IMG/VR virus record: IMGVR_UViG_3300037137_000891 | Coordinates: 1 to 26,726 of that record | Origin: a virus | DNA length: 26,726 bases | Reading direction: 5' to 3' (one strand) | Shown: in pieces, positions 527 to 21,885 of the stretch | Position numbering within the stretch: the stretch's first letter is position 1 | Layout of the letters: the number at the start of each line of letters is the position of its first letter | Position numbers and translations under genes: made by a program | The notes under the pieces: model-generated | Database searches by the model: none | What the model was told of the DNA's origin: nothing | What the model saw: only the letters and a program-made list of their open reading frames with translations

Positions 527-1996
527 TTAAACGGAAACGGTGATCCTGGCGCTGTCGAATTCCGCCACCTGGGTTGCTCCGATGACGATATTGGCGGCGG
601 CGTATGTCGGCGGGTCCAGCGGTGCCGCGGTGGCGTCCGCGGTGACGGTGATGCTGGCCAATCCCGGAACGGTGAAGCAGGGCCCGATAAATCGATCGAG
701 CAGGACGTCCCGGCCGACCGGGTGGTTGGCAAGGGCGAAGGCCAAAACGGCCGCGGCGATTTGCGCCTCTCCATCGATCGGGAAATCTTCCTCGGCGTAT
801 AGGGTGTAAACAAATTTCAGGTGGATATATTGCGGAACCGGCCGGCTAAAATTCACGTCCTGCAGGTCGCCGTTGCTGTCCTCGATTTGCTCGGTGGTGT
901 TGCCGAAGGTGGCAATGCCCGCGGGCTTGGTGTCCCATATCTTTTGCGCGACGTCGGCGTCGGTTCCGCCCTGGACCACGGCCTCGAATGAATGCGGCGG
1001 TCTCCCGTCCACGTCCACGGCGTCGGTGGTGTTTTCGTAAATGGCCGCGGCCGTCACGCCCTCAACCTCGGCGACGATGTTCGCCAAAATTGCGGCCAAG
1101 GTGGCAAGGCCTCCAAGGCTCAGAACTTGTTTCCTCCGGATCCGGAGGTCGGTGTCGGTCTCCAAATCGCGGCCGAGGGTTCCGTCCTGCAGGTTGGTGA
1201 TGGCGTCGAATCCGGAAACCGGCGTTTCGATCACGTTCAGCGTTCCCGTCAGCGCCTGCACGGCGCCGGTGTTAACGGCCGCGTATGGCTGTGGCGTCCA
1301 TATCTCGTCCAGGTCCAAGCGCTCGAATGTCGGCGCCTCCTGCGGATCGACGTCGATGTCCATGGCGGTTTCGTTGTCGTCGGTGGTGATGGTGATGGTC
1401 CCATCCAAATTGTCCACGGCGGTGGCGGGCTCGATGCTGGCGTTCACGGCGATGGTTAATCCCGCGGCGATCTCCAGGTCGGTGGCGCTCCCGTCGCTGG
1501 TGAAATCGCTATTGGTTCCGTTGATCGAAATCCGATAAAGGGTGGTATTGGCCACCGTGTTGATGCTGATTTTCACCCGCAGGGTGTTGGTCCTGGCGAT
1601 GGTGGCATCGGCCTGGGCTTCGAATTGTTCGCCGGTCGGTGTGATGGATGCCCGCGTCGTTGCCGGCACCAGCGTTCCCTCGTCGCCTTGAATAGCGGCC
1701 TGCACGGCCGTTGATGTCGCCGGCAGGCGCGTGATATTTTCCAATGCGGCGACGTTGTCGAGCGCTATGCCGGTGGCGCTGTTCGGGTATTGGCTGTGGT
1801 AAATGGCCTCGAGCGCTTCCCAAACCAGGCCAATCTGGCGGGCGATCACGCCGTTGATTTGGCCGGCGACGGAATCCGGGGTAATGGGTGAATCGACCGG
1901 GATGCCTAAAATCGGCCGCACCTCCACGTCGATGGCGGAGAGGACGTCGCTCTCAAGCATGCGGTTAAAACCGGTGGCGCTTAATCCGAAACTCAT
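527..1996 (-). CDS. Baseplate wedge protein J-like
   Basis: A 489-residue protein of the gpJ/gp6-like baseplate family, which forms the wedge ring linking the tail tube end to fibres in contractile tails. The N-terminal part (residues 1-100) resembles the family's start, with a segment ending in a typical ALDNVAALENITR pattern. The C-terminal half has the usual features: a GRDLETDTDLRIRRKQ segment near 275-290, an internal VEGVTAAAIYEN strand and a late region of paired beta strands. Residues about 147-218 form an inserted beta domain nearly the same as one in the sheath protein of this window. It overlaps the gp25-like gene by ATGA, as is common for the gp25-J pair. Confidence 0.92.
   Translation of the reverse strand: MSFGLSATGFNRMLESDVLSAIDVEVRPILGIPVDSPITPDSVAGQINGVIARQIGLVWEALEAIYHSQYPNSATGIALDNVAALENITRLPATSTAVQAAIQGDEGTLVPATTRASITPTGEQFEAQADATIARTNTLRVKISINTVANTTLYRISINGTNSDFTSDGSATDLEIAAGLTIAVNASIEPATAVDNLDGTITITTDDNETAMDIDVDPQEAPTFERLDLDEIWTPQPYAAVNTGAVQALTGTLNVIETPVSGFDAITNLQDGTLGRDLETDTDLRIRRKQVLSLGGLATLAAILANIVAEVEGVTAAAIYENTTDAVDVDGRPPHSFEAVVQGGTDADVAQKIWDTKPAGIATFGNTTEQIEDSNGDLQDVNFSRPVPQYIHLKFVYTLYAEEDFPIDGEAQIAAAVLAFALANHPVGRDVLLDRFIGPCFTVPGLASITVTADATAAPLDPPTYAAANIVIGATQVAEFDSARITVSV
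1343..1558 (-). other. Inserted beta domain within baseplate J, shared with the sheath
   Basis: Codons for residues about 147-218 of baseplate J. The segment holds TVAN, TLY, ING, FTSD, SAT, EI, GL, AVN and EP in the same order and spacing as residues 91-163 of the sheath (bases 8656-8874). I count about 29 identities over the first 50 or so residues. It is probably a small beta-sandwich exposed on the particle; this is inference. Confidence 0.7.
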
Positions 1997-5091: not shown

Positions 5092-6734
5092 TAATCCACC
5101 TGCGGATTTTCTTGGTTCACGTGATCAAAACTTCGGCGCAAATGCTCATCAACGACTTGGCCGACGGCAGATCGGATCGCATCCACTTGTTGTCCTGGTG
5201 TTCCGGGCGGGACCGTGACATAATTATTCACGGTGGCGGTGGCGCTGGTGCTGTTGCTGGCGCCGTTCACCACGGATGGCCGGGCGAATGCTCCGGCATT
5301 AAATCCTCCGCTTAAGCCGGCGCCGGCGAGGCTTGGACCGCCAGAAATACCGGCAGGCAATTGGCCGAATCCGCCGGTGTTAAATCCTCCGGTCAAAAAT
5401 TTAACGGCCCAATCCGGGATCACTTTTTTAATTAATTCGAACCCCAATTGAAAAGGGTAGGCGATGGCCTTGGCGATCAGGGAGGCGGTGCTGGTCAGCA
5501 CGTTCAGGATGCCCTTGATCATCTCGTCGGTGGCCGCAATAATCAGGTTGCCGTCCGCTGTGAAAAGCCCGACGATAAAAGTCAGGAATCCCGCGATCAC
5601 GCTGGCGACGCCGTCCAAAACCTTTTTCACGGATTGGAAATTGTCGAGCCATCCTCCGATGACGGATTGCCCGCCTTGCATCCAAACGTACAGGTCCTCT
5701 AAAACCAAAATCACCAGGAAAATTCCCGCGGCGATCAATGCCGGAAGGATTAAAATTTCCCCCCATGCAATCAGCGCCACCACGGCCAGGGCGGCGAATC
5801 CTATTGTCAATGCCGTCACGCCGAAAAGAACCAACTTCACGGCGTTGTCGAATCCGCCCAATCGCTCAATCGCCCAAACGAAAAAGGCGCCAACCTTTTC
5901 CCCAATCAAAAGCAAATATCCGAGGGCCTTGGTCAATCCCTCCACGAATTTATCCAGCTTTTGTTTGATCACGGCTTCATTTGCTATGAGCCATTTTTGC
6001 ATCCGTTCTGAAATGTCCCGGATCGATTTGAATAATCGGATGCCGAGCTCGTTCCGCAATCCGAAGGCGAGGCCTTTCAAATTCTGCAGGCTGTCGCCCA
6101 TGGCGTCCGCCTCTTTGGCGGTGGCCTCGGTGAAAAGCCCGAAGGTGGAAACGGCGGCGCTGGCGGCCTCGAGCCCGGCGGATCCTTGCATCAAAAAGCG
6201 GCCCATGCGGGCGCCTCCGCGGCCGAATAGGTCCATGCTTAAACTGGCCCGGGTGGCTGGGTCTTTTATGCCCTGGAACCGGTCGGCCACATCCCGAAGG
6301 ATTGATCCGGTGTCGCGGGTGTTTCCGTTGGCGTCCTTGAGGGTGATTCCCAATTTGGCGAATGTCTTTCCCACCTCGCCTTGGCCGCGGATGGCGTCGC
6401 CCACGTTGCGGGTTAAAAAGCGCAGGCTGGTGGTGAATTCCTCATTTGAAACTTCGGCAAGGCTGGCGGCGTGTCGGTATTTTTGGAATTCCTCGACGGA
6501 AAGGCCGACCAATTCCGCGGTGGCGATGGCTTCTTCTCCGGCGTTGGCGGCTGAAATGGCGACGCCGATCAGGGCGGCGCCGGCGGCGACGGCCGCTCCC
6601 GTTATTGCAAGCAGGCCCACCTTGGCTGTTCCGACCGCTCGGTCGAATCGCTTGATGGTTGCCTCGTCGACATCCCATCCCAATTTGGTTATTAATTCCC
6701 GGACCGTTATTCCGCCGCCTCCGCCTGGCATCAC
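5091..6734 (-). CDS. Tail tape measure protein
   Basis: A 547-residue protein with the features of a tape measure: an N-terminal helix (VRELITKLGWDVDEATIKRF), a hydrophobic Ala/Gly-rich segment at about 37-63, a conserved-looking FQKYRHAASLAEVSNEEF region, long helices, and membrane-like segments around 300-345 and 370-400 that could insert in the host membrane. The protein is short, which predicts a short tail; tail length is not measured here. The frame can start at GTG 6734 or ATG 6731; the upstream chaperone extension stops at 6731-6733. AAGGAGG lies just upstream. The C-terminal part is Gly/Ser/Asn rich. Confidence 0.93.
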   Translation of the reverse strand: MMPGGGGGITVRELITKLGWDVDEATIKRFDRAVGTAKVGLLAITGAAVAAGAALIGVAISAANAGEEAIATAELVGLSVEEFQKYRHAASLAEVSNEEFTTSLRFLTRNVGDAIRGQGEVGKTFAKLGITLKDANGNTRDTGSILRDVADRFQGIKDPATRASLSMDLFGRGGARMGRFLMQGSAGLEAASAAVSTFGLFTEATAKEADAMGDSLQNLKGLAFGLRNELGIRLFKSIRDISERMQKWLIANEAVIKQKLDKFVEGLTKALGYLLLIGEKVGAFFVWAIERLGGFDNAVKLVLFGVTALTIGFAALAVVALIAWGEILILPALIAAGIFLVILVLEDLYVWMQGGQSVIGGWLDNFQSVKKVLDGVASVIAGFLTFIVGLFTADGNLIIAATDEMIKGILNVLTSTASLIAKAIAYPFQLGFELIKKVIPDWAVKFLTGGFNTGGFGQLPAGISGGPSLAGAGLSGGFNAGAFARPSVVNGASNSTSATATVNNYVTVPPGTPGQQVDAIRSAVGQVVDEHLRRSFDHVNQENPQVD

Positions 6735-6985
6735 TTACCTCCTTTGGCCTTGGCGGCCTTCATGGCCTCCGCCTCAACCTCGGCCCGGAAATCTAGCACG
6801 GCGTTGGCTCGGAGTAGGTCGTCAAGGCTCCAGGTCGTTTCCAATTCCTCCAGCGTTGCCGCTCCGTCCAAAACCACCCGCCATATTAAAAGCTCCTCTC
6901 GAAGCTCGGGGCTCAGGCGCTCTGCGATGCGTTGGGAGGGACCGGCGCGAACCTTTGCAGGATTGCTCCAATGCCTCCCTTGCCG
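6731..6985 (-). CDS. Frameshift extension of tail assembly chaperone (GT-like)
   Basis: After the stop of the 151-residue chaperone, the -1 frame codes for a convincing protein that ends at TGA 6731-6733. It includes RIAERLSPELREELLIWRVV and ETTWSLDDLLRANAVLDFRA, a pattern typical of second tail chaperone frames (helix, then TWSLxDLxxAN). This frame has no good start codon of its own, but a T TTT TTC heptamer at 6991-6985 would allow a -1 slip and give a fusion of about 212 residues (128 from frame 0 plus 84). By analogy with lambda gpG/gpGT the fusion would load tape measure and tube. The slip site itself is inferred. Confidence 0.72.
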   Translation of the reverse strand, partial: RQGRHWSNPAKVRAGPSQRIAERLSPELREELLIWRVVLDGAATLEELETTWSLDDLLRANAVLDFRAEVEAEAMKAAKAKGGK

Positions 6986-7368
6986 AAAAAATCGGAGAAG
7001 TTTACCTCCAATGAAAATCCCAAAACCTTAAAAAGAAAAACCAGGCTATGCTCAAACGCGGCGTCGAATTGGGCGTTGGTCTTGATCTCTTTCCCGTTCA
7101 CCCATGTGTCCTGCAATAGCTCCATGGCCAATTGAAAAAATGATTCTGGGTCCATGGCGTCGGCCAGCTTTTGGATCGCGGGCCCGATGGCCTCGGTTCC
7201 GATCTTGGCGTCGAATCCGATCCCGCCTTTTCCGGCTCCGGCCGCGGCGCCTATCGCGGGCCCGACCAGCTTGACCAGCTTTATCTGCAGGAGCAATTTG
7301 CGGCGTGCGGCGAATTCCGTAATCCGGACCGCGACGTCGTCGATGGTTTTCTCTTTGGATTGAAGCAC
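6913..7368 (-). CDS. Tail assembly chaperone, frame 0 (G-like)
   Basis: A 151-residue protein between the tube and tape measure genes, where tail assembly chaperones lie. It starts at GTG 7368, ten bases after the tube stop, with AGGG as weak ribosome binding site. The N-terminal part has helices (VAVRITEFAARRKLLLQIKL), then a Gly/Ala-rich section and a DPESFFQLAMELLQDTWVNG region resembling chaperone proteins that follow the tube in myophages. Function is inferred from position, size and the overlapping -1 frame. Confidence 0.8.
   Translation of the reverse strand: MLQSKEKTIDDVAVRITEFAARRKLLLQIKLVKLVGPAIGAAAGAGKGGIGFDAKIGTEAIGPAIQKLADAMDPESFFQLAMELLQDTWVNGKEIKTNAQFDAAFEHSLVFLFKVLGFSLEVNFSDFFGKGGIGAILQRFAPVPPNASQSA
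6985..6991 (-). promoter_or_regulatory. Candidate -1 ribosomal slippery heptamer
   Basis: On the minus strand the codons GAT TTT TTC read as T TTT TTC, a canonical X XXY YYZ heptamer in phase with the chaperone frame. A -1 slip here enters the open frame described at 6731-6985. It lies about 70 bases before the frame 0 stop. A second candidate, C CCT CCC at 6940-6934, fits the rule less well. Confidence 0.55.
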
Positions 7369-7377
7369 GGCCAGCCC

Positions 7378-7815
7378 TTACGCCGGCGTGACGTCGGGGT
7401 TGCCTCCGACGAAATAATCCACATCGGAAAGGTCCATCACCCATTCCCGGTCCTCGATTTCCAAACCGAAGGCGGCGTCCGGTTGCTTTTGAACCCATCC
7501 CGTTGCCGAGAACAGGGTCGTTCTCCCGCTCCCGTCCTGGATCAAAATGGGAACGACGCCGGCATTCAGCAGGCGGTCGGCCTGGGCAATCGCGGCCAGC
7601 ACGTCGTTGCTCGGGCTCGTTTGCATCAGGGTGATGGTGGCGGTTCCACCGTTGTTGTTGCTTTTCGCTCGGGCGGTTTCGCCGTCGGCGCCGGTCTCCT
7701 TGGTGAAGGCCTGCTCGTCCATGGCGAGGCTTAGGAATGTTCCCGCGGCGAATCCGCCAATGGGAACGCCTCCGATGATAATGCGGACGGCTTTGGGGTC
7801 GTAGGTTCTCAGCAT
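7378..7815 (-). CDS. Tail tube protein, DUF3277-like
   Basis: A 145-residue protein that fits the tail tube family DUF3277. Key pattern: DPKAVRIIIGGVPIGGFAAG at the N terminus, then a central TATITLMQTSPSNDVLAA segment and a late GLEIEDREWVMDLSDVDYFV strand pair. Proteins of this family form the hexameric rings of the inner tube in contractile tails. It follows the sheath gene as expected and has a good AAGGAG site before ATG 7815. Confidence 0.9.
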   Translation of the reverse strand: MLRTYDPKAVRIIIGGVPIGGFAAGTFLSLAMDEQAFTKETGADGETARAKSNNNGGTATITLMQTSPSNDVLAAIAQADRLLNAGVVPILIQDGSGRTTLFSATGWVQKQPDAAFGLEIEDREWVMDLSDVDYFVGGNPDVTPA

Positions 7816-7842: not shown

Positions 7843-9144
7843 TTAAACGGAAACGACGCCGTTGATCTCGGTCTTGTGAATTGCTCCCGCCAGGGTGGCG
7901 TTGAATTTCACATCGGGCAGGAGGCGTGCCTGCTTATCGATCGTGGCGACGTCCTTGGCAAGCGGCGCCGTCACGGTTGGTGCGGGGTCGTTGCTCAGGA
8001 AGGTGCGGTCGACGCCCTGTTGCAATTGCGCTTTGATCTCAGCCACCACGACGGCGATGCCGGGATCGGTGTATGGGATTTTCAGGGCTCCGGCCAATTT
8101 GCCGAATACCCTTTCCTTGGTCCGGGCTTCGAGCCAATCGATCCCGATGATGGTGTCGATATATTCGCCGCTGGAAACCACGCCATCGGCGGTGATGTTC
8201 ACGCCGGCCACCTGCTCATAGGTGTTGCAATTCTTGGCCAGGGCGTTGATGCTTTGCGTGCTCGTCAAAACGGAAACGGCGACGCCAGCCAGGTTCTTGA
8301 ATTTGGCGGTGTATGTTCCGGGGTCGAGCGCCAAAATCCGGCCCATGAAGGCGGCGTCCGGATATGCGGTGTCGGCCGCGGCGTGATAAATGCACGCGGT
8401 GCGGTCGTATCCCGCGGCCTTCAAAATGGCGGCGAGGCTGGTGGTGTCCGAGGGATCGGAAACGTTGATCACGTCCGATTCCTTGGTGGATGCGAAGAAG
8501 AACTTTTTGTTGGCCTCCACCCACGCGGCGCCGTCCTGCATGTCGGCGCTGGTTCGGTCGGTCAGAACCAATCCGTACCAATCCGATTGCTCGTTGTTGA
8601 TGGCGGTGAGGTCGTCGGCGATGGCATCGACCGCGGTCAAGGCGTCGATGGTCAAGCGGGCGCTAACGGTCAATGTCCACGCGTCGCCCGGCACGTCCTG
8701 GGTCAGGCTGAAGGTGTTGGCATCCACGGCCGCGGCGGTGACGGGTTCGCTCCCTCCGTTCACGGCGGCGATCAATCCGTCACGGATTTCCGTTGCGGTG
8801 GCGCTGGCATCCGAGGTGAACGGAAAATTCACGCCGTTGATGGTGACGCTGTAAAGGGTGAGATTGGCCACGGTGGAAACCGTGACGTCGGCGGCGTCGA
8901 CTTGTCGGCGGCCGACGGCCACGCGATCCGGAGCCGGTGATTGGCTGAAAACCTCGGCCGCGGCCTTGTATGCCTCGGTGGTCGATGGGAAAACCAGCGC
9001 CAATTCCGAAAGGCTGGAATAATATTCCACGCGGCTGGTGTTGTTCAGGTGGGTGGCCAAAATCAGGCCGGTGCCGAAGCCCTGCTGGGAAACGGTCACG
9101 CTGTCGCGTGTAATGGTGACGTCGACGATATTGGTGATGTCCAT
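7843..9144 (-). CDS. Tail sheath protein, DUF3383-like
   Basis: A 433-residue protein of the DUF3383 sheath family. The N-terminal strands (DVTITRDSVTVSQQGFGTGL) and the later segments VEANKKFFFASTKE, YDRTACIYHAAAD and FMGRILALDPGTYTAKFKNL are characteristic. The C-terminal part has DVKFNATLAGAIHKTEINGV, like the final strand that links sheath subunits. Residues about 91-163 form an inserted beta domain shared with baseplate J. A strong site, AAGGAGGAG, precedes ATG 9144. The protein wraps the tube and contracts on infection. Confidence 0.93.
   Translation of the reverse strand: MDITNIVDVTITRDSVTVSQQGFGTGLILATHLNNTSRVEYYSSLSELALVFPSTTEAYKAAAEVFSQSPAPDRVAVGRRQVDAADVTVSTVANLTLYSVTINGVNFPFTSDASATATEIRDGLIAAVNGGSEPVTAAAVDANTFSLTQDVPGDAWTLTVSARLTIDALTAVDAIADDLTAINNEQSDWYGLVLTDRTSADMQDGAAWVEANKKFFFASTKESDVINVSDPSDTTSLAAILKAAGYDRTACIYHAAADTAYPDAAFMGRILALDPGTYTAKFKNLAGVAVSVLTSTQSINALAKNCNTYEQVAGVNITADGVVSSGEYIDTIIGIDWLEARTKERVFGKLAGALKIPYTDPGIAVVVAEIKAQLQQGVDRTFLSNDPAPTVTAPLAKDVATIDKQARLLPDVKFNATLAGAIHKTEINGVVSV
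8656..8874 (-). other. Inserted beta domain within the sheath, shared with baseplate J
   Basis: Codons for residues about 91-163 of the sheath. The domain starts TVANLTLYSVTING, continues with FTSDASATATEI and ends in a TLTV strand. It matches residues 147-218 of baseplate J (bases 1343-1558) in sequence and spacing. It lies between the N-terminal sheath strands and the core, so it may decorate the outside of the sheath; this is inference. Confidence 0.7.
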
Positions 9145-9154
9145 TGGCTCCTCC

Positions 9155-9793
9155 TTAAGGGGTCAGGTCTGCAATAAAAGGTATTACGATATCCGGTTCC
9201 GGTGGATGCTCGTAGGTGGCTTCGCCTTCCACCCGTTCAATATAGTTAGCGTTTTGATCCTGCGTGCTGGCATGGGTTCTGAACCGGATTTCAAGGCTTC
9301 CCCTCTCCAAAAATTGCGAATCATAAAGCCCGGTCAAATCCACGACGTCCGCCGGCTGGATGGTGGCGATGGCCTCCTCCCGCAAGGCGTCGATCACGGA
9401 TTCGATGTCCAGGCATGTCCGCAAATCCTCGAGCACTTGGATCCCGCCTTTTCCGAATGCCTGCAGGGTGATTGCGAATTCACGATCCCCGATCATTTCC
9501 ACGTTTAATACCTCGGTGTCCAATTGCTCGACCGGGCCTTGGAAATCCCGGAGGCCGGGCTTGGTCAGCGGGCTCATGAAAATGGTCACGTACTTGGATG
9601 GGCTGGCCTCGTTGCTCGGCCGCGGCGCGTTCTGGCGCTCGAATATTACTTTCCATCCCGCCGGCAGGCATCCGACCACCCATTCGTAAATCGCGGATCG
9701 AAGCTCGGCCAATGTCGGCGATGGCGTATGGCTCGGCGCCGGCACCGTTGTGGTGGTGAAGGAGAAGGTGCTGGAAAATGGACCGAATGGCAT
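9155..9793 (-). CDS. Tail terminator-like (neck) protein
   Basis: A 212-residue protein between the neck genes and the sheath, where the tail terminator usually lies. After a Thr/Ser/Pro-rich start, it has LAELRSAIYEWVVGCLPAGW, then VIFERQNAPRPSNEASP, a pattern of phage neck terminator proteins (a helix, then a Pro-rich segment and a beta strand ending in the EVLNVEMIGDREFAITLQAFG strand pair). ATG 9793 follows AGGAGAAC; a longer upstream frame overlaps the neighbouring gene out of frame and was not used. Both this protein and its upstream neighbour begin MPF. Confidence 0.75.
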   Translation of the reverse strand: MPFGPFSSTFSFTTTTVPAPSHTPSPTLAELRSAIYEWVVGCLPAGWKVIFERQNAPRPSNEASPSKYVTIFMSPLTKPGLRDFQGPVEQLDTEVLNVEMIGDREFAITLQAFGKGGIQVLEDLRTCLDIESVIDALREEAIATIQPADVVDLTGLYDSQFLERGSLEIRFRTHASTQDQNANYIERVEGEATYEHPPEPDIVIPFIADLTP

Positions 9794-9801
9794 CTGTTCT
9801 C

Positions 9802-10692
9802 CTAGTCGTCGTTGGCCCGGGCCCGCCAGAAATATCCGGTTCCCTGGTCCAATGTCTCGGCCGGCACCTGCAGGCTGGTTTCCAATATACCGCTGGCGCT
9901 GTAAACGATGGCGGTGAATCCGGCATCCGTTGCTATTTCCACGGCGTAACTGGTGGCGCCGGCGACCGCCTCCCAATTCAAAAGCGGCCCGGTGAATATT
10001 CCGGTGGCGGCGTCCGCGGGCATGAGGAGGTTGGGTGCCGTCAGCGCCGGCGGGTCCTCGGCGGTGATGCTGATGTCGTCGATGGTTCCGTATCCGATTT
10101 GCGCATAAGCCGAAGGCCCGAATATATTATCCTCAATAAATCGGTTCAGCAAAAACCCGGTGTCCACGGTGAGCAGGCCCGGCTCCGTGTGTTTAAGGGT
10201 TCCGTTGATCCTCAATTCGATATCCGGACCGTTCTGGGTCATTTTGAAATCGGCCGAATGCGTAAAAAGAAAAGGCCGGGCTCCGACGGCCGCTGGCGTC
10301 AGCACCTCCTCGCTCCAAACTAAAACCGAATCCACGATAAAAAACCAGCGGGCGCCGAATTCGTCGGTGTTGAAATCGTACCATAGCTGGTATCCGCAAT
10401 AGGTGTTGCCTCCGGCCGAGAAAATGGTGGCGAAATTATCCCAGCTTAATCCGTTGCCGGCGCCGAGGTTCGGGGTGTTGTACCAAACCCCAAGGGTGGC
10501 CAGAAATTCCGTGACCGCGGTGGCGAGCTCATGGGTGAAATAGGTGATCGTCCCTTGGAAATTCTCCTCGTTGACGTTGTCTCCGTCCACGCGATAAAGG
10601 CCCGCCTCCGAAATCGTCGGCCCTCCCACGCCCAATGTCCAAAAGGGATCGACGCCCGGGCCCGCGCATGGATCGGTAAACGAAAACGGCAT
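9802..10692 (-). CDS. Beta-sandwich plus FN3-like neck or head decoration protein
   Basis: A 296-residue protein with two parts. Residues about 30-210 look like a concanavalin/LamG-type beta sandwich (alternating strands with WYDFN, FKMTQNGPDIELRINGTLKH and a final IGYGTIDDISITAED strand). Residues about 220-296 look like a fibronectin type III domain (PADAATGIFTGPLLNWEAV, AGATSYAVEIATDAGF, GTGYFWRARANDD at the very end). Such folds often bind glycans or sit on the particle surface. No close family is named. It follows the stopper-like gene with TAA AATG spacing and has no clear ribosome binding site, so it may depend on coupling. Confidence 0.75.
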   Translation of the reverse strand: MPFSFTDPCAGPGVDPFWTLGVGGPTISEAGLYRVDGDNVNEENFQGTITYFTHELATAVTEFLATLGVWYNTPNLGAGNGLSWDNFATIFSAGGNTYCGYQLWYDFNTDEFGARWFFIVDSVLVWSEEVLTPAAVGARPFLFTHSADFKMTQNGPDIELRINGTLKHTEPGLLTVDTGFLLNRFIEDNIFGPSAYAQIGYGTIDDISITAEDPPALTAPNLLMPADAATGIFTGPLLNWEAVAGATSYAVEIATDAGFTAIVYSASGILETSLQVPAETLDQGTGYFWRARANDD

Positions 10693-10693
10693 T

Positions 10694-11041
10694 TTATGCC
10701 AGGACCGCTGGTTGTTCGACCTTGATGGCGATGGCCTTGTAGTGGCTTATGATTTGGTTCTGCCAAACCTCGACGGATAAAATCTCGAATTCCTCGCCGA
10801 ATAATTGCACGCGGTCCGGGTTCTGGTGCCGGGTGGTGTGAAGCTCGATGTCGGTGTAAATCCGGTATGCCTGGGAATTCCTCCGGCCCTCGGGCAGGGT
10901 TTTCATTTCCTTTGGCGTCAGGGGTTGCACGCTGGCGATAATGTCAAAGGGTGCGATCTCGGCCTCGGTCGTCCATGTCCCGTCCACGTATTGGCCGCTG
11001 GCCAGGCGTCGGATGCTCAGGATGAAATTGCGCAGGCTCAT
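10694..11041 (-). CDS. Head closure or stopper-like connector protein
   Basis: A 115-residue protein in the position of a head-tail stopper. The pattern is MSLRNFILSIRRLASGQYVD, a strand region ASVQPLTPKEMKTLPEGRR, then AYRIYTDIELHT and FEILSVEVWQNQIISHYKAI. This alternation, with an internal Pro-Leu-Thr-Pro, resembles phage connector proteins that close the portal channel. It overlaps the gp10-like gene by ATGA. Family is inferred from position and strand pattern. Confidence 0.7.
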   Translation of the reverse strand: MSLRNFILSIRRLASGQYVDGTWTTEAEIAPFDIIASVQPLTPKEMKTLPEGRRNSQAYRIYTDIELHTTRHQNPDRVQLFGEEFEILSVEVWQNQIISHYKAIAIKVEQPAVLA

Positions 11042-11505
11042 TTTTTTATCTCGTTCACGTGGCGGATGCTTTGGATCATTTGCCCGGTGTCGATGAGGGT
11101 TGCGCTACTCCCCTTGATGGCGATCGTGGCCGGCGCGTTGGGCGGTGGAATGTTCGACCGGATCTTGGCCTGCACCTGGGCGGTGTGAAGAAGGCCGATC
11201 CGGTCCAATGAATCCTCGATGGTGCTGGTGCCCAGGATAATCTTTCCCTTTTCCTGGGCCATCACCCGTTCCAATCCTTTCCTGTTCTCGTCGTATGAAG
11301 GCCGCAAAAATGACCGGCGGGGAATCCCTGGCGCTCCGAATTCATGGGCGGCGCCGATGCTGACGAGGTCGGATGTCCCGTCCTCTCCCTTATGCTGGGC
11401 TCCCTGTTGCAGGCCGACCTTGGTGTGGGAACCGGAAAGCCTGCCCATGGTGCGCTTGATGCGGTCCCAGCCGAGGTCGGTGTCCTTGACGCTGTTCCGG
11501 CTCAT
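11038..11505 (-). CDS. HK97 gp10-like neck / virion morphogenesis protein
   Basis: A 155-residue protein with the landmark stretch IGAAHEFGAPGIPRRSFLRP at about residues 50-70, typical of gp10-like and phage virion morphogenesis proteins (a conserved HEFG followed by IPxRxFLR). The C-terminal part contains PLLD-like ATLIDTGQMIQSI, also typical. Such proteins act in head-tail joining. The gene overlaps the DUF4054 gene and the stopper-like gene by ATGA, so the three are likely co-translated. Confidence 0.88.
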   Translation of the reverse strand: MSRNSVKDTDLGWDRIKRTMGRLSGSHTKVGLQQGAQHKGEDGTSDLVSIGAAHEFGAPGIPRRSFLRPSYDENRKGLERVMAQEKGKIILGTSTIEDSLDRIGLLHTAQVQAKIRSNIPPPNAPATIAIKGSSATLIDTGQMIQSIRHVNEIKK

Positions 11506-13180: not shown

Positions 13181-13633
13181 TTACGGAATGTTGATTTCGA
13201 CGATGGCGATGCCTCCGCTAACCGCGGCGGATCGGAAGACTCCGGTCGGCACCACGATGGCGTTGGTGTTGTCATTCCGGAACTTTCCGAAATCGCCGAC
13301 CGCGTTCACCACGAAGGCGGGTTCTCCATCGGCGACGGTGTCGTTCACCAAAACCCAGGCCTTTCCTCGGCGCAAAACGTTAACGGAATCGTTGGCCAGA
13401 TATCCGATCAGGGATTCCTTTTGTTCATGCAGGGCAATGCCCATGAAAGCGGCGGATGCGTCGGCGCCTGCGGGCAATCGCACGCGGTCGTCGCCGGCGG
13501 CGTGTCGAACGACGCCGAGACCGAAACCGACCGCGGCCTGTGCCGGGTGGCTTTCGACGTAGTCGAATTGGGCGTCGGCCTTCATGCCGGCCATGGCGGC
13601 GGCGGTGGTAAGGGAATATGCGGTCTGGCTCAT
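13181..13633 (-). CDS. Decoration / structural cement-like protein, short paralog
   Basis: A 150-residue protein that begins MSQTAYSLTTAAAMAGMKAD and contains VESHPAQAAVGFGLGVV, GIALHEQKESLIGY and VNVLRRGKAWVLVNDTVADG, then a beta-rich C terminus ending GGIAIVEINIP. The pattern fits small structural cement proteins that sit beside the capsid gene. It matches its upstream neighbour nearly throughout but lacks that protein's internal domain. ATG 13633 was chosen because it aligns with the paralog's start and has an AGGAG site; an upstream in-frame extension overlaps the neighbour. Confidence 0.85.
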   Translation of the reverse strand: MSQTAYSLTTAAAMAGMKADAQFDYVESHPAQAAVGFGLGVVRHAAGDDRVRLPAGADASAAFMGIALHEQKESLIGYLANDSVNVLRRGKAWVLVNDTVADGEPAFVVNAVGDFGKFRNDNTNAIVVPTGVFRSAAVSGGIAIVEINIP

Positions 13634-13673
13634 GGGTTTCTCCTGTTTTTTCGCGTTTGTTTTTCCGTTTCCG

Positions 13674-14408
13674 TCACGGCTCGTTGATTTCCACGATCGC
13701 GATCTGGCCGGTGGTGGCGGCGCTGCGGAATTTGGCGCCCGAAACCAGCAGGCCGCTGGCGTTGTCGTTTCGGAATTGCCCGGCGTTGGCGTCGGCGTAA
13801 CTGATGTAAACGTCGTCGCCGTCGGCAACGGTATCGCATACCACCACCCATGCCTTGCCGCGGCGCAGGACGTTGACGGTGGAAAATTGCGGATAGCCGA
13901 TCAGGCTTTCGCGCTGCTCATGCAGGGCGATGCCACGAACGATCGTGTCAATGGTGGATCGGGTTTCCACGACTCCGGCCTGGCTCGCGCCTCCGGTGAT
14001 CGAAATGCTCGCAGCATCCACGGCCACATTGGAGGCGACCACGGTGAGGGTGCGGTTTCCCGCGCCTCCGACGGTGGCGTCATAACTTGCGCCGGTCAAG
14101 GCTTCCACGGCCGCGGCGACCGCGTTCATGGTGGCCAGGTGAGAGGTGGCGAACAAAACGGAAACGGCCTCGCCGTTCAAGGTGAAGGCGAAGGTGTTGC
14201 CGGTGACAAGATTGGCATCCAGCACCAGCATTAATTGATTTAAGAGGGGGGGCCGAACTTGGCCGTCTCCGCCTTGCGCTTTCACTAGGCCCAGGCCGAA
14301 ATTGATCTGCGCCTGCGCCGCATGGCTTTCCACGTAGTCCGCACCGCTGTCGGCTTTCATGCCGGCGACTGCCACCGCGGTGGTGAGAGAATATGCGGTC
14401 TGGCTCAT
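13674..14408 (-). CDS. Decoration-type protein with inserted beta domain, long paralog
   Basis: A 244-residue protein with the same ends as its downstream paralog (MSQTAYSLTT start, then GIALHEQRESLIGY, VNVLRRGKAWVVVCDTVADG, and a QIAIVEINEP end). Between residues about 58 and 155 it carries an extra domain rich in beta strands and Ala/Val (GNTFAFTLNGEAVSVLF, then NRTLTVVASNVAV). That insert has the same layout as the domain in the sheath and baseplate J, though weaker in sequence. Likely on the head surface, by neighbourhood and paralogy; role inferred. Confidence 0.85.
   Translation of the reverse strand: MSQTAYSLTTAVAVAGMKADSGADYVESHAAQAQINFGLGLVKAQGGDGQVRPPLLNQLMLVLDANLVTGNTFAFTLNGEAVSVLFATSHLATMNAVAAAVEALTGASYDATVGGAGNRTLTVVASNVAVDAASISITGGASQAGVVETRSTIDTIVRGIALHEQRESLIGYPQFSTVNVLRRGKAWVVVCDTVADGDDVYISYADANAGQFRNDNASGLLVSGAKFRSAATTGQIAIVEINEP
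13944..14237 (-). other. Inserted domain in the long decoration paralog
   Basis: Codons for residues about 58-155, absent from the short paralog next door, which joins directly from VRLPAGADAS to the shared GIALHEQ segment. The insert holds a TF-strand, a LNGE turn, a helix NAVAAAVEALTG, and strands with TVGGAGNRTLTVVA. Same order of parts as in the sheath/baseplate J domain, with low identity. Confidence 0.6.
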
Positions 14409-19944: not shown

Positions 19945-20417
19945 CGTGCCGGCGTCGCCTTGGCCTTGGGCCCATCCCCGCGGCGATTGTCCGGCAAAAT
20001 CAGGACCATTCCCTTGGCTCCGGTAATTGGCAGGGGGTGTTTCGGATCAAATCGCATGGTGTCCCGTCTCCCCCATCGGCTCGGGAATTTGCGGCTCAGG
20101 ACCTCAAGGGCGAGGCGGCCGTCGGTTCGGGCCTGGCCGGCGACGGTTATGGCCAGGTTGAATTCGCCCTTGATCTCGGCGTCGCGCATTGCGTTGATCA
20201 AGTTTGAATATGGATTGTTACCTCCGCCCTTGGAAGCCCTTATTTTCCATGTGCTTAGGGTGCTCTTGTCGATGCCGGCGAGGCGTGCGGCCTCGGCCTC
20301 GTACATGCCGATGGTGATCGCGTCCACGATTATCTGGTGAACGGCGGGCGTGAGGAGGGTTGGGCGTCCTCCTCCGGTTCCCTTGTCCGGTCCCCTTTTC
20401 CCGCTGGCCTTAGCCAT
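19941..20417 (-). CDS. terS: Terminase small subunit
   Basis: A 158-residue DNA-recognition subunit. A basic Gly-rich N terminus is followed by a helix-turn-helix of about residues 36-60 (EAEAARLAGIDKSTLSTWK), then a helical NLINAMRDAEIKGEFNLAI region and an EVLSRKFPSRWGRRDTM segment that is typical of this family. It lies directly before terL and overlaps the ParB-MTase stop by 8 bases (AATGGCTAA). Helix-turn-helix, size and place agree. Confidence 0.9.
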   Translation of the reverse strand: MAKASGKRGPDKGTGGGRPTLLTPAVHQIIVDAITIGMYEAEAARLAGIDKSTLSTWKIRASKGGGNNPYSNLINAMRDAEIKGEFNLAITVAGQARTDGRLALEVLSRKFPSRWGRRDTMRFDPKHPLPITGAKGMVLILPDNRRGDGPKAKATPAR

Positions 20418-21885
20418 TCTTTGGCGCCTTTTCCGCGGTCTCTCCGGTGAAGGCCTGCCATCGGTCCACGATTAAATCGCAATATCCCGGGTCCCGTTCC
20501 ATGATTCGGGCTTGGCGGTTCAATTGCTCGGCGGCGATCAGCGTGCATCCCGTCCCTCCGAAAAGGTCGAGGACGATTTGATCGGGCAGGCTGGAATTGA
20601 TCAGGGCCCGGGTGGCGAGCTCGACCGGCTTTTGGGTGGGGTGGTCGGCGGCTGTGTCCCTGGCGACGGTCCAGGTGTCGGTGGCGGCGCTGTCCTGCAG
20701 GAGCTCGATTTTCTGGCCGGGCGTGATCCGGATGGTCCTCAGCTTTTTCCCTTTCGGCGCTTTGCTTTGGAGGTATAGCTGGGCGCCTTGTCCGTCCAAA
20801 AGCAGGAGGCCGGATGCCAATGCCGCGGCGACATCGCTTTTCCCGTCCTGCAGGCTGGCGGTCCAGACGGTTTGCTGTTTCCTGTCGCCGTGGAACGGTG
20901 CGCTCTCTCCGTCCTTGTGGCAATAAAAGCATGGTTCATGGGCCCAATGGTAATCTGCGTGTCCCATAATGAAATTGTTTTTTACCCAGATCAGGTATTG
21001 GGTCTCGACGATTCCCTCGGCCTTGAGGGCGAATGTGAAATCTTCCCGGGTGCTGGAGGCGTGCCAAATGTAAAACGCGGCGGTGGGCAGGCTGTGCTTT
21101 GCCGCGAGGCGGAATGCCGGCCGGAGCAATTTGGCGACCAGGTCGTCCGCCTTTTTCTCGTCTCCGCGGATCGGCTTGTAGATTTTGTCGGATATGGTTT
21201 TATAGCCGACGCCGTAGGGGGGGTCGGTAAAAACCATGTGCGCTCGTTGTCCGGCCATCAATCGCTCGACGTCCTTGTCCTGGGTTGAATCCCCGCATAG
21301 GATTCGGTGCCGGCCGAGGATGTAAAGGTCTCCGGGCTTGGTCCTGGGCTTGGTGGGTAATTCCGGCAGGGCGTCCGCCGGTGTTTTGCCTGGCTTTGGC
21401 TCCTCCCGGTCCTGCAATTCTCCGAAGCGCAGGGCCCGGAACCGCTCGGCGTTCTCGGCCAGGATTTCCTGTAATTGGGGGTGGATGGCGTCGGTGAACC
21501 GGCCCTGCAGGGCGGGGTTGTTGGCGGCGATGTTCGCGGCGCGTTGCTTTGCCCTGGGCCATGCCACCTCCCGGATTCGGTAGGTCTCTCCGTTGGGCGC
21601 CTGCACGAAGGCGGTGCCGTCGGCGTTCCGCTGGATCGCCATGGGTCCGAACTTTTGCCGCAATCCGTCCAGGCGCTGGTGCCCGCATACGATTTGGCCG
21701 GTCTTGGTGTTGTAGGTGATTCCGGAAAGGTCGCCGAATTCCCCCAGCGAATATCCCAGGCCCTCGATGGCGGCCTTGGAAATGGATCGCGGGTTGTCCG
21801 GATCCGCTTGTAGGTCGTCCAGGGTTTTCAATACCAGGGGTGGTGTTTTGGTTCGGCTCGGTTTCGGTGCGGGATCCTTGGCCAT
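20410..21885 (-). CDS. ParB-domain / DNA methyltransferase fusion
   Basis: A 491-residue protein. Residues about 15-110 form a ParB-like N-terminal domain (DDLQADPDNPRSISKAAIEG, then GQIVCGHQRLDGLR, similar to ParB GERR boxes). After a linker with a PGDLYILGRHRILCGDST segment, residues about 190-480 are a beta-class DNA methyltransferase with catalytic DPPY at 221-224 (VFTDPPYG), HPTQKP at 415-420 and the SAM-binding LDLFGGTGC at 439-447 after the catalytic motif. Order of motifs suggests N4-cytosine or N6-adenine methylation. No helix-turn-helix is seen, so it may not itself read parS. A clear AAGGAA site precedes ATG 21885. Such fusions occur in many phages next to terminase. Confidence 0.93.
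   Translation of the reverse strand: MAKDPAPKPSRTKTPPLVLKTLDDLQADPDNPRSISKAAIEGLGYSLGEFGDLSGITYNTKTGQIVCGHQRLDGLRQKFGPMAIQRNADGTAFVQAPNGETYRIREVAWPRAKQRAANIAANNPALQGRFTDAIHPQLQEILAENAERFRALRFGELQDREEPKPGKTPADALPELPTKPRTKPGDLYILGRHRILCGDSTQDKDVERLMAGQRAHMVFTDPPYGVGYKTISDKIYKPIRGDEKKADDLVAKLLRPAFRLAAKHSLPTAAFYIWHASSTREDFTFALKAEGIVETQYLIWVKNNFIMGHADYHWAHEPCFYCHKDGESAPFHGDRKQQTVWTASLQDGKSDVAAALASGLLLLDGQGAQLYLQSKAPKGKKLRTIRITPGQKIELLQDSAATDTWTVARDTAADHPTQKPVELATRALINSSLPDQIVLDLFGGTGCTLIAAEQLNRQARIMERDPGYCDLIVDRWQAFTGETAEKAPKNG

Follow-up and report, generated by a model that had tools for sequence, protein, structure and literature searches.

Lateral domains of type 2 tail sheath proteins occur also in nozzles, auxiliary capsid proteins, FliD, and flagellin (2025, PMC12846349). 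These domains have no direct part in contraction, and their outward position has been published for Adele/phiTE (PMC12846349); domains added to sheaths are placed at a distance from the tube (PMC9230969). Promiscuous Ig-like domains of virions (Fraser et al. 2006), as far as they are presented where cited in PMC9230969, are likewise accessory, exchanged between structural genes, directed outward, and dispensable for the core.

The window analyzed here, 26,726 nt in length and comprising positions 1-26,726 of IMG/VR record IMGVR_UViG_3300037137_000891, belongs to an uncultured contractile-tailed phage. Two modules, designated as domains A and B, were found inside its virion genes, unlike the Ig-like virion domains, and were predicted to possess a central helix and not an Ig fold. 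Ig-like virion domains are situated mostly at gene ends or behind frameshifts. The type 2 lateral domains (Adele/PAK_P1, phiTE, Sf14, and Mu) belong to the same protein family and occupy the same position as the sheath domain of the window; wedge J, the terminator, and the swapping and nesting of modules, all seen here, are unmentioned in PMC12846349. The outer domain of podovirus nozzles (T7 gp12 and P-SCSP1u gp23; Phage_nozzle) was matched by domain A at Z 9.8-11.5 over about 148-250, but nozzles represent another tail type and another carrier protein than the J and sheath of the window. Similarly, flagellin D2/D3 and the hook-associated FliD possess a fold like that of domain A, whereas the proteins hosting it differ. 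Added domains of sheaths are known and usually studied protein by protein; here, one sequence family spans four virion proteins of related phages. In the literature searched, no description of a sequence family across wedge J, sheath, terminator, and cement proteins and no statement on the swapping and nesting of A and B were found. The case is a true insertion of a known virion fold, more widespread and more mobile than first noted.

A domain common to the baseplate J and tail sheath proteins

The gene at nt 527-1996 (minus strand) encoded a baseplate J-like wedge protein of 489 aa, which matched Pfam Baseplate_J PF04865 (1.5e-11, 44.5 bits, above the cut-off of 21.1) and PHROG 6 (baseplate wedge, 1e-46), with 9ndy_H and 9zd7_0 as solved relatives. 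The gene at nt 7843-9144 (minus strand) encoded a DUF3383 tail sheath protein of 433 aa, matching PF11863 (1.4e-36, 126.9 bits, above the cut-off of 34.9) and PHROG 205 (tail sheath, 1.3e-108); full-length relatives solved as sheath proteins were 9zdk_S (3e-75), 9c39_H, and 9mt4_Q. The protein in the tail-tube position, nt 7378-7815 (minus strand), matched PHROG 280 (8.5e-45), which is filed under head and packaging.

BLASTP between the two proteins gave E = 1e-12, with the conserved part located within a shared domain. Residues 143-206 of J and 87-150 of the sheath were identical at 32 of 64 positions without gaps (50%), close to the approximately 29 identities per 50 positions claimed in a previous sequence-only reading. 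That reading had placed the J segment at residues 147-218, which correctly corresponds to nt 1343-1558 (minus strand). The full domain was slightly larger, spanning about residues 139-232 of J (nt 1301-1582, minus strand), as judged from identity to the sheath domain, the empty site of locus L008 (see below), and the predicted model, and about residues 85-170 of the sheath (nt 8635-8892, minus strand), as judged from identity to the J domain and empty sites elsewhere. For the domain alone, the Smith-Waterman score was 149, versus a mean of 36.1 (sd 6.7) and a maximum of 67 for 2000 shuffles. Outside the domain, the score of 36 was below the shuffle mean of 42.7, and the remainders of the two proteins are therefore unrelated, in agreement with the earlier claim. 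With T, A, N, and D abundant in both segments, a chance or compositional resemblance of two Thr/Ala/Asn-rich beta segments might be considered. The probability of such a resemblance is practically nil, since composition-preserving shuffles never exceeded 67, J-to-sheath cross-matches recurred between different phages, and solved structures agreed; the shuffles and the structures refute it. These results confirm that J and the sheath of the window have one domain in common.

Insertion, predicted fold, and distribution among virion proteins

The proteins of the IMG/VR locus L008 lacked the domain region while retaining conserved flanks: its J (405 aa) aligned to residues 4-133 and 240-489 of the window J, and its sheath (345 aa) to residues 1-80 and 182-432 of the window sheath. 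Domain-less sheaths of 340-360 residues were also present in the bacterial genome contigs L105-L109, and the sheath and wedge of Pam3, which are minimal relatives with solved structures, matched mainly outside the domain. The proposed insertion was thus borne out for both proteins, and since members of both the J and the sheath families are devoid of the domain, the match does not fall within a fold common to the two full families. The matched empty sites provide natural pairs with and without the domain for testing a decoration function, and they define carrier loops that accept whole extra domains. In the J of L009 (nt 9980-11419), a different beta-rich segment, THGLTTGDYVFVTGA, with no Pfam match, occupied the same insertion site. 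A sheath frame of 3693 residues in L100 was an artefact of masked N and was rejected.

The AlphaFold model of the J domain A had a pLDDT of 85.4, partly dependent on the sheath because the folding alignment contained sheath domains, and that of domain B from the cement protein (see below) had a pLDDT of 92.8. Both models possessed the same beta/alpha order, with one helix of 13-14 residues after the third strand; the beta domain anticipated from sequence thus consists of beta strands plus one helix in the J model. With this helix, neither model corresponds to an all-beta Greek-key Ig sandwich without a central helix, and no Ig-fold chain was among the best structural matches listed for them. 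Domain A matched the wedge of phage Bas63 (9ndy_L 134-228, Z 11.7), the A-1(L) sheath (8kee_C 93-186, Z 11.5), a podovirus nozzle (8i4m_A, Z 11.5), flagellin (9atl_A, Z 10.6), and the phiTE sheath (Z 10.0), as well as the Sf14 sheath, flagellin-type 4nx9 (Z 9.2), and FliD (Z 6-8). Domain B matched the solved domains found for A at Z 8.6-9.7, with only a moderate margin over the usual background (7-8). Domain A also matched the Vibrio colonisation factor GbpA (second domain, Z 8.9) and LPMO chains (Z about 9); these matches do not prove a function. A domain A profile (A4) matched sheath 9zdk_S at residues 85-168 (E 1.6e-19), and this homology places the window domain A with the type 2 sheath lateral domains; it also matched 9zd7_0, the wedge of the same structure set as 9zdk (2.4e-5). 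Among the 51 members of the domain alignment, weak matches to Flagellin_IN PF07196 were observed in 5 (best 7.4e-5); Phage_nozzle was matched by 4 and the Ig-like family Big_2 by 8 (best 3.4e-4). The window's own domains (the first-listed ones) had no Pfam match to Flagellin_IN.

An iterated profile, run over every open frame of the loci analyzed, detected domain A in 82 of the 92 sheaths and 32 of the 45 Js from related phages, as well as in three tail terminators (L022, L025, and L065) and one cement protein (L045). The search for the domain in other phage proteins, which had been suggested as a check, thus added terminators and a cement protein as carriers, and the domain, as claimed, is mobile, moving among virion genes within this group of related phages. 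Two of the terminators were identified as such by PF23961 (L025, 6.1e-15; L065, 1.1e-9). The terminator of the window, nt 9158-9796 (minus strand; PF23961, 2.3e-14), is without insertion. In the 45 loci with both genes, some frames of which were cut by contig ends, a domain was present in both proteins in 32, in the sheath only in 9, in J only in 2, and in neither in 2. The J of L026 possessed two copies of domain A at two sites. With the HMM consensus of domain A, tblastn against cultured phages gave no match at 1e-3. Directly upstream of the terminator, nt 9802-10692 (minus strand) encoded a 296-residue protein that by eye resembles a lectin-type domain with a fibronectin-type one behind it; at 0.01 it matched neither Pfam nor PHROG, and it is possibly another surface protein.

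Domain B was observed at about residues 56-147 (nt 13968-14243, minus strand; HMM of B and AlphaFold model) of a capsid cement protein of the E217 gp24/Pam3 gp6 family, encoded at nt 13674-14408 (minus strand) and matching PF22758 Phage_cement (2e-17, 64.1 bits, above the cut-off of 27). A smaller tandem paralogue at nt 13181-13636 (minus strand; PF22758, 7.3e-24) shared 69% and 62% identity with the two flanks of the larger protein and had no B, representing an empty site within the window; the two genes are tandem duplicates, one with and one without B. Both cement proteins were 100% identical in amino acid sequence to those encoded by a metagenome contig (L010, nt 5959-7225), indicating that a near-identical phage exists elsewhere.

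The domain B profile matched many cement proteins, as well as the sheath site of A (L052, L053, L061, L073, L075, and L094), Js (L066, L071, L074, L084, L087, L093, L095, and L096), and a head-completion-like protein (L076). In the relatives, A and B take each other's place at one sheath site, are arranged in tandem, or nest; in J and the sheath of L084, as read from the sequence, the loop of A that precedes the helix holds B. Sheath cores sharing 52-53% identity were found to have A, B, or nothing. Comparison of A with B by hhalign gave E 6.9e-5 but a probability of only 63, and the two are probably distant homologues. No match to the window domain B was found by tblastn against cultured phages. 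Sheaths of 630-740 residues and Js of 670-760 residues with several A/B modules, both tandem and nested, were encoded by L084, L087, L093, L095, L101, and L102, which belong to phages or proviruses, Chlamydiae-assigned contigs included.

Relationships of the domain copies

A tree built from 98 A domains placed the J domain of the window with those of the L004 and L021 Js; within this lineage, J domains formed a separate clade. Sheath domains from other phages were closer to the window J domain than the window sheath domain, which ranked only 14th among the nearest relatives, and the pair is therefore not a recent copy. A recent exchange between the J and sheath genes of the window, one explanation offered for the likeness, was not supported by this ranking or by the separate J clade. 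At supported forks, the terminator copy of L025 and the cement copy of L045 each joined sheath domains from their own or an almost identical phage. Sheath domains of such phages were also the nearest relatives by alignment: at 62% identity for the L045 cement copy, at 50% for the L025 terminator copy (L022 sheath domain), and at 47% for the second L026 J copy (sheath domain of its own locus).

Copying within one genome, with the sheath domain as the donor for the wedge, terminator, and cement genes and a common particle surface as the outcome, is one possible reading of these relationships, but an unlikely one. If it were true, copying into fixed tolerant loops would give head, neck, tail, and baseplate a uniform coat of a mobile module, which would have a function of its own, e.g. 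broad adhesion or masking. A single origin of all J domains was not rejected (AU test, p = 0.082), and frequent exchange between J and sheath is therefore not proven. This test result, the presence of A in most sheaths and Js of the group, and the lack of special closeness between the window J domain and its own sheath are in line with old vertical inheritance, with one entry each into sheath and J and nothing mobile here. Such inheritance is on the unlikely side, since sheaths differ in having A, B, or none at the core identity given above, the supported forks force three independent arrivals in other genes, and a J with A stands beside a domain-less sheath in four genome contigs (L105, L106, L108, and L109), with the reverse in others.

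Possible function of the modules

Homology, insertion, a shared predicted fold, and gain, loss, and swapping are established for these modules. Domain A is probably a mobile, accessory, and non-catalytic decoration of the particle surface, directed outward and either weakly adhesive or stabilising. It would represent a surface module of approximately 75-90 residues, carried by the tail sheath and the middle part of J, with a predicted order of one strand, two strands, a helix, and about four strands resembling flagellin D2/D3; the head cement protein of the window carries domain B, its putative distant relative. Gain, loss, swapping, and nesting of such modules take place at a small number of tolerant virion-protein sites, and some additional copies are closest to the sheath domain of their own genome. 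Judging from published structures, they may take an outward, lateral position with no direct part in contraction. Since relatives without them exist, the modules are dispensable for the core machine, and recurrence at few, fixed positions among related phages makes them look like a reusable surface add-on and not part of the core. We infer that the module may act through many weak contacts, which would provide either loose adhesion to polymers of the cell surface or the environment or side-to-side stabilisation of the particle, presumably without an enzymatic role.

Binding to glycans of the host surface or the environment, as weak multivalent adhesion, is a plausible role that falls short of an even chance; glycan binding had been suggested in the sequence-only reading. 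It would suit carriers that are several of the proteins forming the outside of the particle, the fold match to the second domain of GbpA, and a distribution like that of the Ig-like virion domains, which are proposed, in what PMC9230969 cites of them, to be weak carbohydrate binders; the fold is, however, common to many non-binding parts such as nozzle and flagellin. Identity of the domain was close to that of the core over all distances (0.54 vs 0.67; 0.37 vs 0.43), and the domain thus evolves only slightly faster than the core, unlike strain-specific receptor binders. These values speak against a receptor binder that changes rapidly and is specific to strains, but leave weak, broad adhesion unaffected. 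A role as a stabiliser or docking piece, making lateral contacts between sheath subunits or holding fibres or neighbours at the baseplate rim and on the capsid, can be put forward tentatively. Added sheath domains have been suggested to stabilise the tail disk (PMC9230969), and the middle and C-terminal globular parts of the Milano wedge link the periphery and attach receptor-binding proteins (PMC10811340). Such a role is weakened by the filling of one site by different families, and sheath cores approximately 52% identical with A, B, or nothing are hard to square with a specific contact. The preferred reading, an outward surface decoration, encompasses both roles.

A receptor-binding lead for the wedge of phage K8 (PMC9887876) was rejected: the mutated protein, GP075 (243 residues), is the product of a gene other than the J-like gp074 and is therefore uninformative on domain A. 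Elsewhere in the window, beside the terminase, nt 20410-21885 (minus strand) encoded a product in which, by eye, a ParB-like part seems joined to a DNA methyltransferase.
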